From: Polaribacter sp. SA4-10
GTDB lineage: Bacteria > Bacteroidota > Bacteroidia > Flavobacteriales > Flavobacteriaceae
NCBI RefSeq assembly: GCF_002163835.1
Contig: NZ_CP019331.1
Span: forward strand, 1,525,001-1,589,000
Direction of reading: 5' to 3'
Length of the DNA: 64,000 nucleotides
The position numbers and the translations under genes are program-made. Positions 6,159 to 41,548 of this stretch are shown one piece after another (positions within the stretch are counted from its first letter, which is position 1; each line of letters starts with the position of its first letter). The notes beneath the pieces are model-generated. The model was given only the letters and a program-made list of their open reading frames with translations. It was not told the origin of the DNA and did no database searches.

Positions 6159-6368
6159 TTTAAACTCGAAAAAAGATTAAGATATTAGGCGTATATTTTA
6201 AAATCTAATGATAATTTTATAGAAAAAACAAGAGATATATTATTATTATTATCAGTTTCATAATAATTTTAGTTCACCAGTAAATGGTTTTATTTTTTTA
6301 GTTCATTAAATAGTATTTTCATACCTTAATGATTCATTAAACAACTAAAAAAAAATTACTAAAATTTT

Positions 6369-7574
6369 ATGAAAGCCCTTTTTTATACTAGAGAATTTCC
6401 TCCTTATGTATATGGTGGTGCTGGTGTTCATGTAGAATACCTTGCAGCAGAATTAGCCAAACTTATGAAAGTTGATGTTAGATGTTTTGGAGATCAAAAC
6501 GATTCTAACAGTAACCCATCAGTAAAAGGTTTTCCATATGAAAATCCAATTTTTGACAATTCAGATGACAAACTTAAAGCAATCTTTAAGACTTTAAGTA
6601 CCGGACTTCACATGAATGCTGATCCTATTGATGCAGACGTTGTTCACTGTCATACCTGGTATTCCCATTTTGCAGGCATTATGGCAAAGCTTTGCTATGG
6701 AATTCCGCTCGTTATCACTACCCATTCTTTAGAACCTTTAAGACCTTGGAAAAGAGAACAATTAGGGCGCGGTTATGACGCTTCTTCTTGGATAGAAAAA
6801 ACGGCTATCGAAATGGCTGATGCTTTGATTGCTGTTTCTGAAGAGACTAAAGAAGATGTTTTAAAACATTTTGATGTTGATGAGAATAAAATTAAGGTTA
6901 TTTATAATGGTATTAACTTACAACAATATATCACCACACCAGAAACTTCTACCTTAGATGAATATGGAATAGATAAAAGCAAACCTTATGTACTTTTTGT
7001 AGGAAGAATAACAAGACAAAAAGGAATTATTCATTTGGTAAATGCAATAAAATATATAGCCCCAGATACTCAAATAGTTCTTTGTGCTGGTGCACCTGAT
7101 ACTCCAGAAATAGGTGCAGAAATGGAAGCTGCTGTTAACGAAGTTAAAAAGACTCGTAAAAACGTAATCTGGATTGACAAAATGGTAACAAAAGAAGAAG
7201 TCATTCAGTTATACTCACATGCTGATGTTTTTTGTTGCCCATCAATATATGAACCTTTTGGTATTATAAATATTGAAGCAATGGCTTGTGACACAGCTGT
7301 TGTTGCAAGTGCCGTTGGAGGAATTAAAGAAGTTGTGGTTCATGGAGAAACAGGGCTTTTAATTCCTGTAGAACAACAAGATTCTGCTCCTTTTGAACCT
7401 ATAGATCCAGATACGTTTTCGAAAGATTTAGCAGATGGAATAAATAAAGTAATAAATAATCCAGCATTAAGAAAATCGATGGCTCAAAAAGGCAGAAAAA
7501 GAGTTGAAGAATATTTTGATTGGATTTCAATTGCGAAACAAGTAGAAGAATTGTACAAAACATTAAAAAACTAA
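6369..7574 (+). CDS. glgA: GT4 glycogen synthase / maltose-1-phosphate synthase (GlgA-GlgM type)
   Basis: GT4 retaining glucosyltransferase using ADP-glucose, 401 residues. It resembles the actinobacterial short GlgA/GlgM (about 390-410 residues) rather than the GT5 GlgA of E. coli (about 477). Visible features are the N-terminal donor loop YVYGGAGVHVEYLAAELA, HCHTWYSHF, the family-typical THSLEPLRPWKREQLGRGY, the fold-defining VLFVGRITRQKG near 215, and the ExFGIxxxEAMAC motif (PSIYEPFGIINIEAMAC) near 295. GlgM condenses ADP-glucose with glucose-1-phosphate to alpha-maltose-1-phosphate, the substrate of GlgE, which is encoded two genes downstream. That neighbour is the main reason to prefer the GlgM role over simple glycogen extension. 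It is the first gene of a tight operon, 3 bases from glgC. Confidence 0.9.
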   Translation: MKALFYTREFPPYVYGGAGVHVEYLAAELAKLMKVDVRCFGDQNDSNSNPSVKGFPYENPIFDNSDDKLKAIFKTLSTGLHMNADPIDADVVHCHTWYSHFAGIMAKLCYGIPLVITTHSLEPLRPWKREQLGRGYDASSWIEKTAIEMADALIAVSEETKEDVLKHFDVDENKIKVIYNGINLQQYITTPETSTLDEYGIDKSKPYVLFVGRITRQKGIIHLVNAIKYIAPDTQIVLCAGAPDTPEIGAEMEAAVNEVKKTRKNVIWIDKMVTKEEVIQLYSHADVFCCPSIYEPFGIINIEAMACDTAVVASAVGGIKEVVVHGETGLLIPVEQQDSAPFEPIDPDTFSKDLADGINKVINNPALRKSMAQKGRKRVEEYFDWISIAKQVEELYKTLKN

Positions 7575-39831: not shown

Positions 39832-39908
39832 GGCCATGTGGCGCAACTGAATAGCGCACTTGATTACGGCTCAAGAGGTTGCTGGTTTGAATCCAGCCAT
39901 GGTCACCA
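39832..39908 (+). tRNA. tRNA-Arg (anticodon ACG)
   Basis: A complete cloverleaf can be drawn. The acceptor is GGCCATG / CATGGTC with one G-U pair. The D-arm has GCGC/GCGC with AACTGAATA. The anticodon stem CTTGA/TCAAG holds the loop TTACGGC, so the anticodon is ACG (A34, probably deaminated to inosine by TadA). The T-arm is GCTGG TTTGAAT CCAGC. Discriminator A and an encoded CCA end at 39908. Inosine would let it read CGU, CGC and CGA. Confidence 0.95.
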
Positions 39909-39910
39909 AC

Positions 39911-39953
39911 AAAACCAGTACTTTCCAATGATTTGGAAAGTACTGGTTTTTTC
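39911..39953 (+). terminator. Terminator after tRNA-Arg
   Basis: Perfect stem AAAACCAGTACTTTCCA / TGGAAAGTACTGGTTTT followed by a T-run, directly after the CCA end. Confidence 0.92.
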
Positions 39954-40152
39954 ATTTGCAGGATACTTGCAGAATAAGCACCCCCCGTTATTACGAATCA
40001 ATAGGAAATTATACCGAGGTGAATCAAAATCAATAAAATCCCTAATCAACACTTTAACAGTAGCTTATATTTATAATTTCAATAAATTAAGATAAAATCC
40101 TATAGTAAAGATTCGTAATTATTATTTTTTTTATAGATCTCTTTGACATTTT

Positions 40153-40373
40153 GGGAACGACAGGTTTTGACAACAAGGACAATGAACTTGTAAGCATCGT
40201 AAAAGTAAATATAGAAAACTTGAAGCTTTGGCAAGTTTTTGAAACTAAAGAAGATAAGCTAAAATCAGGTTGTTCTTCACCAACTTTTAGTCGAAAATTA
40301 AGAAAGAACTAAGTATGTAGAAAGCTTTTTGGCTGCTTGTTTGGACCCGAGTTCGATTCTCGGCGTCTCCACA
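40153..40373 (+). pseudogene. ssrA: Truncated, probably decayed tmRNA
   Basis: The 5' end GGGAACGACAGGTTTTGACA and the 3' end GGACCCGAGTTCGATTCTCGG with CGTCTCCACA are the tRNA-like half-domains of a flavobacterial tmRNA. The acceptor would pair GGGAACG with CGTCTCC with one A-C mismatch. Only about 221 bases separate the ends, against nearly 400 usual in the group as I recall. PK1 is very short or absent, and most of the region for PK2-PK4 is gone. The tag region reads GAAAAC, then TTGAAGCTTTGGCAAGT; it gives the expected xENxxALAx pattern only if a frame change is allowed. I therefore call it a dead copy, though a highly reduced functional tmRNA is not excluded. A terminator follows directly. 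Confidence 0.6.
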
Positions 40374-40375
40374 AA

Positions 40376-40410
40376 TTAAAAAACCTCCAAGTTTGGAGGT
40401 TTTTTAATTT
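40376..40410 (+). terminator. Terminator after the tmRNA-like sequence
   Basis: AAAAAACCTCCAA / TTGGAGGTTTTTT, near-perfect stem with T-run. Confidence 0.9.
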
Positions 40411-40465: not shown

Positions 40466-41548
40466 ATGAAAATTATAGTTTCTGTAACTAATGATTTATC
40501 TACAGACCAACGTGTAGATAAAGTTTGTTCTACATTACAAAAAGAAGGTTATAAAATTGTTCTTATTGGTAGAAAACTTAAAAATAGTACTCCCTTAAAT
40601 AGAAGTTATAGCACAAAAAGAATTAAATTAATATTTAATAAAGGTTTTTTATTTTATGCTGAATTTAATTTTCGCTTATTTTTTGTTTTACTTTTTTCTA
40701 AAAAGGATACACTACTTTCTAATGATTTAGATACTTTGCTTCCAAACTACCTCGTTAGTATTCTTCAAAGAAAAAACATAGTATATGATAGTCATGAGTT
40801 GTTTCCAGAAATTCCAGAGTTAGTTCATAAGCCTTTTATAAAAAAATGTTGGTCTACTTTAGAAGCTTGGATACTTCCAAAACTTAAAAACACGTATACT
40901 GTTTGTAATAGTATTGCAGAGTTTTATGATAAAAAATATAATTCTAAATTTAAAACTATTCTTAATTTACCCAATAAAAAGGAATTAGAATTCGGTGTTT
41001 TTCCATTTAAAACAGCAGGAAAAAAGATTATTATATATCAAGGTGCAGTTAATATAGGTAGGGGTTTAGAGTTAATCATTGACACCATGAAGCTTCTTGA
41101 TAACTGTATTTTAGTAGTTATTGGTAATGGTGATATTTATGAAACTTTAGTTAAAAAGGTAGGTAACAAAAACTTAAATAATAAAATTCATTTTTTAGGA
41201 AAAATTTCTCCAAAAGAATTAAACAAACTAACTCCCTTAGCTAATTTAGGATTAAGTATTGAAGAAGATTTAGGTCTAAACTATAGATTTGCACTACCTA
41301 ACAAAATATTTGATTACATTCAGGCAGAAGTACCTATTTTGGTTTCTAATTTACCAGAAATGAAACGAATTTCAATAAATTATAAAGTTGGTGAAATTAT
41401 TAAAAACAGGAAACCAACAGAACTTGCTCAACAAATTGAAAAGTTGTTAGAAAAAGATTTTTCTAATGAATTAAAAAAAGCAAAAAAAGAATTGATTTGG
41501 GAGAATCAAGAAGAAAAACTACTTACTATTTTTAAGGATTTTATGTAA
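40466..41548 (+). CDS. Glycosyltransferase, GT4-like
   Basis: 360-residue GT-B fold sugar transferase, acceptor unknown. The N-terminal Rossmann half begins KIIVSVTNDLSTDQRVDKVC and includes SNDLDTLLPNY and YDSHELFPEIPEL; the C-terminal half begins IIIYQGAVNIGRGLELIIDTM and has FLGKISPKELNKL. The usual ExFGxxxxE donor motif is replaced by SIEEDLGLNYRFALPNKIFDYIQAEVPI, common among capsule and cell-surface GT4 enzymes. No signal peptide, so cytoplasmic or membrane-associated. Its last 30 bases overlap the convergent GT2 gene. Confidence 0.85.
   Translation: MKIIVSVTNDLSTDQRVDKVCSTLQKEGYKIVLIGRKLKNSTPLNRSYSTKRIKLIFNKGFLFYAEFNFRLFFVLLFSKKDTLLSNDLDTLLPNYLVSILQRKNIVYDSHELFPEIPELVHKPFIKKCWSTLEAWILPKLKNTYTVCNSIAEFYDKKYNSKFKTILNLPNKKELEFGVFPFKTAGKKIIIYQGAVNIGRGLELIIDTMKLLDNCILVVIGNGDIYETLVKKVGNKNLNNKIHFLGKISPKELNKLTPLANLGLSIEEDLGLNYRFALPNKIFDYIQAEVPILVSNLPEMKRISINYKVGEIIKNRKPTELAQQIEKLLEKDFSNELKKAKKELIWENQEEKLLTIFKDFM

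Follow-up and report, generated by a model that had tools for sequence, protein, structure and literature searches.

A shortened second ssrA gene in Polaribacter sp. SA4-10 is probably a pseudogene at a chromosomal rearrangement breakpoint

The chromosome of Polaribacter sp. SA4-10 carries, in addition to a full-length ssrA gene, a shortened second copy that is very probably a non-functional pseudogene situated at a rearrangement breakpoint. This reading, which derives from comparison of sequences, is founded on three findings: the short copy has no tag reading frame, the same genome carries a full-length ssrA, and the short form turned up in none of the other genomes searched. The copy resides within the window analysed here, a stretch of 64,000 nt (C1:1525001-1589000) from a genome assembled as one contig of 3,435,762 bases with a completeness of 99.99. 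A covariance-model search revealed a forward-strand match to the tmRNA family RF00023 (82.9 bits, gathering score 47, E 1.2e-30), so the tmRNA of about 221 bases that a sequence-only reading had placed at 40153..40373 is a real family member, although its end lies one base further, at 40374. ARAGORN did not call the short copy in the window, its sole call there being a tRNA-Arg. The features discussed below are collected in Table 1.

Table 1. Features at and around the short ssrA copy (window coordinates unless marked as genome coordinates)
Feature	Position	Strand	Basis or remark
tRNA-Arg(acg), complete; putative left attachment end of a former island	39832..39908	+	
Terminator hairpin of tRNA-Arg	39911..39950	+	stretch also found after tRNA-Arg in a number of relatives
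Possible promoter element, 13 nt directly 5′ of the short copy, TCTTTGACATTTT	40140..40152	+	upstream sequences of relatives
ssrA pseudogene (probable), 222 nt, with a 172-nt internal deletion relative to the full copy	40153..40374	+	RF00023, blastn against the full copy, lengths
5′ arm, 45 nt, 40/45 identical to the full copy	40153..40197	+	blastn, ungapped comparison
Deletion junction, AT common to both segments (2 nt)	40196..40197	+	blastn, ungapped comparison
3′ segment, 192 nt, 191/192 identical to the full copy, extending into the left arm of the terminator	40196..40387	+	blastn
EN..ALA-like string, earlier taken as a shifted tag	40214..40235	+	unchanged at full-copy position 234, in a stem
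Terminator-like hairpin AAAAAACCTCC-AAGTTT-GGAGGTTTTTT, 11 bp	40378..40405	+	seen in the sequence, unlisted by a simple scan
Glycosyltransferase gene	40466..41548	+	homologue directly downstream of full-length ssrA in G026, G009, G006 and one G122 copy
3′ fragment of tRNA-Arg, 48 nt, 87.5% identical	genome 3084315-3084362	-	anticodon region to 3′ end

The short copy consists of the first 45 nt of the full-length gene joined to its 192-nt 3′ part, which runs on into the first bases of the terminator. Because the full gene measures 394 nt, 172 nt are absent from the 222-nt copy; the sequence between full-copy positions 45 and 216 is gone and the last part alone is retained. ssrA thus remains recognizable at the score given above while bearing a disabling lesion. 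By the canonical order of tmRNA elements, we take the missing 172 nt to correspond to PK1, the tag, and PK2, and the retained 3′ part to PK3 and PK4. The sequence-only reading, by which PK1 and most of the pseudoknot region would be missing, is accordingly correct for the would-be PK1, tag, and PK2, but not for the last 192 nt, in which the would-be PK3 and PK4 are nearly unchanged; the pseudoknots that flank the tag on both sides in a functional tmRNA are not found here. Both tRNA-like ends are present, as had been noted, and the acceptor mismatch noticed at the same time proves to be a single one, A4 opposite C69, where the full copy has G4-C69 (tRNA numbering). The G3-U70 pair that confers alanine identity, as read from the sequence, and the T-arm side are both retained.

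The true tag occupies positions 95-124 of the full copy, inside the missing segment. Neither the real tag string nor any such tag in the three frames was found in the short copy, which has no tag reading frame with a resume codon and a stop. A tag reading xENxxALAx after a frame shift had been proposed for this locus; we reject it, as the tag is absent rather than shifted, and the misread string is part of the full gene as well, where it lies well 3′ of the tag in a AAAACTTG...CAAGTTTT stem, presumably PK3 if the canonical order applies. The letters of this stem vary among relatives, and a pattern search for it in 29 relative loci failed to find it in three (L027, L037, and L032). Here, as in the flank, upstream, arm, and fold comparisons, the relatives are the 29 loci L010-L038, a subset of the genus genomes.

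Searching the whole genome with RF00023 for a second tmRNA, a check that had been suggested from the sequence alone, recovered the complete gene at C1:3092425-3092818(-), with a score of 151 bits and a tag, as given by ARAGORN, of GEDNYALAA; the remaining eight matches in this genome all fall under the cut-off. A single SmpB gene is located at 500829-501257. The full copy is almost indistinguishable from the short one across the 3′ segment, but is distinguished from it by its length, its tag, its intact acceptor, and a different terminator. Trans-translation in the cell most likely runs on this full-length copy, and the result fits the earlier suggestion that the short copy is a dead duplicate of a working ssrA located elsewhere. 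The possibility raised alongside it, a drastically minimised rescue RNA, is rejected: the short copy is without a tag frame, the genome has both a full-length ssrA and an SmpB gene, and the short form was found in no second genome among those searched. A candidate minimised rescue RNA is in this way settled as, most likely, a pseudogene. The case also carries a caution, in that a covariance-model match above the gathering score, with both gene ends present, need not mean a working tmRNA.

The distribution of the short form was assessed across the genus and beyond. Of 146 genus genomes searched with RF00023, 144 gave a match at E <= 0.001 and 130 gave one above the cut-off, leaving 16 with none above it, and no other internally shortened tmRNA scored above the cut-off among them. 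Window positions 40120-40260, used as a DNA query over 166 genus genomes, matched 147, and among the matches listed (all but the weakest) only the SA4-10 locus itself spans the deletion junction. Within this scope the short form was seen in its own genome only and is not a gene form conserved among relatives. Two full-length RF00023 matches were detected in each of two genomes, G122 and G064 (L053 and L054 in the latter), and a 97.7-bit match in G152 starts at base 1 of its contig. Spread of the short copy on plasmids, phages, or viruses was rejected, since the plasmid collection gave no match, the only matching record in the phage collection covers 32% of the query, and the 20-mer spanning the junction is absent from the viral contigs. 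The same 20-mer occurs once in the genome_contigs collection, in a repetitive context on a Prevotella contig that has no tmRNA at the gathering score, and we take this occurrence to be due to chance. These collections may leave out the SA4-10 genome or near ones.

The two parts of the short copy have diverged from the full copy to very different extents. Because MAFFT, when used to align the copies, placed the 5′ arm wrongly across the deletion, the arm was compared without gaps, and only the single 3′ difference was taken from this alignment. Differences are found at 5 of 45 sites in the arm versus 1 of 192 in the 3′ segment (Fisher p = 0.001). Four of the five arm changes fall at tmRNA positions 4, 10, 21, and 30, which are invariant in all 29 relatives, and the fifth falls at position 35, which is variable (16 T, 13 A). 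The sole 3′ difference, at window position 40278, is a C in the short copy and an A in the full copy; relatives have A (22) or G (7) at this site, indicating that the short copy is the changed one. When the closing arms were folded together (the 5′ 45 nt with the 3′ 70 nt), those of the short copy reached -26.6 kcal/mol versus -32.1 kcal/mol for the full copy of the same genome and -30.5 to -38.9 kcal/mol for the relatives, such that the short copy is less stable than all 29. Among 500 random arms with five substitutions, 94.8% were at least as stable as the arm of the short copy. Folding of the whole 222 nt alone was uninformative (z -0.79). By these measures the 5′ end of the short copy looks unconstrained, and the 3′ part resembles the full copy too closely for both parts to be of equal age, which points to recent overwriting of the 3′ part.

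A 192-nt repeat with one mismatch might in principle be enough to confuse an assembler, and the short copy might on that account be an artefact of assembly. We regard this as scarcely credible. The differences in the 5′ arm indicate that the copy is not a misplaced read of the full gene, the genome is a nearly complete single contig, and the tRNA-Arg fragment at 3.084 Mb independently fits the history proposed below.

The sequences flanking the short copy bear on its origin and on its possible expression. The 13 nt directly upstream, TCTTTGACATTTT, a possible promoter element, are identical to those preceding full-length ssrA in three of the 29 relative loci (L014, L015, and L030) and differ by one or two bases in several more. 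Matches that adjoin ssrA in relatives extend about 33 nt upstream of the short copy; from there back to the terminator of tRNA-Arg, only short, scattered matches occur among the matches listed. On the strength of this shared upstream sequence, the short copy seems once to have been a complete gene with a promoter of its own rather than a bare 3′ attachment fragment. Downstream, the terminator that had been described as intact is visible in the sequence as an 11-bp hairpin, although a simple terminator scan did not list it. As both the stretch before the 5′ end and the hairpin look preserved, a transcript of the short copy is possible. At the full-length gene, as read from the sequence, an extra stretch of about 80 nt separates the TTTGACATT element from the 5′ end; this stretch (L001 1895-1975) has an inverted repeat, and similar stretches precede ssrA in several relatives.

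Were such a transcript produced, it might act as a tag-less tmRNA that inhibits or tunes the full-length tmRNA, either by binding SmpB or by entering stalled ribosomes without a tag, a role that we consider quite unlikely. Retention of the promoter-like 13 nt, the terminator hairpin, the G3-U70 pair, and the T-arm side would be in keeping with it, and there are precedents: according to excerpts from two sources, mycobacteriophage DS6A has a TLD-only tmRNA, a molecule of this type has an inhibitory effect on tmRNA that may come from titration of SmpB, and tag-less tmRNAs occur in organelles (PMC4131195, PMC11915505). These forms resemble the short copy in having tRNA-like ends without a tag frame. 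As those excerpts present them, however, they are phage or organelle genes, whereas the short copy is a private, decayed chromosomal copy that coexists with a full ssrA and has kept 192 nt of 3′ sequence. Furthermore, the short form is confined to one genome, four of its five arm changes affect invariant positions and one of these four disrupts a pair in the acceptor, and its arms fold less stably than those of every relative compared. The strain-specific version of this idea, in which the short copy would be transcribed from its kept promoter element, compete for SmpB, and so damp trans-translation, is by analogy conceivable and likewise improbable.

The genes surrounding the two copies provide evidence for the rearrangement itself. 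An AlaDh_PNT_N gene lies upstream of the full ssrA of SA4-10 and also upstream of ssrA in 27 of the 29 relative loci. The glycosyltransferase gene that follows the short copy in the window has a homologue directly downstream of ssrA in four of eight relatives with long flanks (G026, G009, G006, and one G122 copy), where it is followed, as in the window, by an ABC transporter and by a large gene that we read as TPR-like. In G034 the homologue is situated 4.3 kb downstream of ssrA, and it was not found in the long-flank stretch examined of G028, G029, or G064; in this tblastx comparison, matches shorter than 30 aa or overlapping a better match were dropped. With flanks of 1.5 kb, it follows ssrA in three of the 29 loci. 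Its assignment as the ancestral downstream neighbour thus rests on a minority of relatives. Taken together, the neighbours of ssrA in relatives indicate that the window now contains the downstream side of what is most likely the ancestral ssrA locus, the upstream side being at 3.09 Mb. In G122, both ssrA copies (L051 and L052) keep the AlaDh_PNT_N homologue and the genes that follow it, and the glycosyltransferase is beside only one of them in the stretch examined.

A corresponding exchange is seen on the tRNA-Arg side. In the fetched stretch of 8 of 11 relatives, a PrmA-TIM block follows tRNA-Arg and the genes found to the left of it in the window; the block lies within about 3 kb of tRNA-Arg in all of the eight except G061 (about 12 kb). 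The other three comprise G100 and G122, which have no PrmA block in the fetched stretch, and G034, in which part of it is found, but only beyond a second tRNA-Arg fragment (tblastx; matches under 40 aa, under 40% identity, or overlapping a better match were dropped). In SA4-10 itself the PrmA-TIM block is located at 3.070-3.084 Mb, adjoining the 3′ fragment of tRNA-Arg. Islands in tRNA genes leave such 3′ fragments behind. The interval between the block and the full ssrA contains this fragment, one DUF285 protein, and a pair of M12B-type metallopeptidases with sorting tails; the two metallopeptidases (L047 4692-9506) are similar and adjacent, carry Por secretion tails, and sit beside the full ssrA.

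Gene order shows two ancestral loci fused in the window, with the DUF2007-like/tRNA-Arg side of the one next to the downstream side of the other, the ssrA locus; their two remaining sides now flank the full-length ssrA. These four flanks fit a single inversion from about 1.565 to 3.09 Mb that has oppositely oriented ssrA copies at its ends. Most simply, if in part by inference, the rearrangement is one 1.53-Mb inversion between ssrA and a tRNA-Arg island that already carried an ssrA copy. Under this scheme, an element carrying an ssrA copy would have integrated in tRNA-Arg, the position of the short copy being what suggests that the island brought it; recombination between the island copy and the native ssrA in opposite orientation would then have inverted about 1.53 Mb. 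In the same recombination the shared 3′ half was probably overwritten and the 5′ end, older and decayed, stayed behind on the tRNA-Arg side; overwriting of this kind would account for the near-identity of the 3′ segments. Among 12 relatives assembled as one contig, ssrA and tRNA-Arg lie on opposite strands, as the inversion needs, in seven (G001, G009, G013, G021, G029, G100, and G122) and on the same strand in five (G016, G024, G034, G061, and G074). An inversion symmetric about the replication axis is not supported by the position of dnaA (3413311), and, given the asymmetry about this gene, further rearrangements may have taken place, with more than one event possible. In a search restricted to the integrase family PF00589, no member was listed within 70 kb of either breakpoint, the nearest being at 3009754, about 75 kb from the tRNA-Arg fragment. 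From the proposed history it would seem that ssrA copies, once moved by mobile elements, can act as recombination sites for megabase-scale rearrangements. An ssrA-mediated inversion is not named in the literature titles and abstract beginnings surveyed, from which we make no claim that none is in print.

The short copy could instead be an ssrA fragment left directly by an island that integrated in ssrA and duplicated its attachment site, without any inversion between two copies. The formation of ssrA fragments by island integration is mentioned in an excerpt of PMC4131195, and 3′ ends of ssrA seem to be used as integration sites in the genus, as in G028. We nevertheless judge this origin very improbable, because the short copy has kept both ends of the gene and lost a stretch between the two, its 5′ arm in itself speaking against an attachment fragment, and because it lies 1.5 Mb from the full copy on the opposite strand, between flanks that show swapped ancestral neighbours. 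As described in excerpted sources, known ssrA pseudogenes share with the short copy the presence of a second, incomplete ssrA beside a complete one, and islands use both tRNA and tmRNA genes; those pseudogenes are, however, described as lacking one gene end, whereas the short copy has both ends and lacks the middle.

Several relatives offer glimpses of integration at the same two genes. In G028 (L048 4824-8537), a full ssrA is followed by an adjacent tyrosine recombinase gene and a frame that we name Fic-like. About 3.2 kb away, the ssrA 3′ end recurs as a perfect repeat of 132 bp, which shares sequence with the end of a short reading frame that matches PAPS_reduct below threshold; the arrangement looks like a young island in ssrA. 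G029 contains a decayed 3′ fragment of ssrA (L049, about 6270-6373; 92/105) away from its full ssrA, and ssrA seems to be an integration site in the genus. In G034 (L097, L098) and G122 (L101), a further 3′ fragment of tRNA-Arg lies downstream of the gene, at distances of about 70 kb and 10.5 kb, and tRNA-Arg likewise looks like a repeated integration site in the genus.
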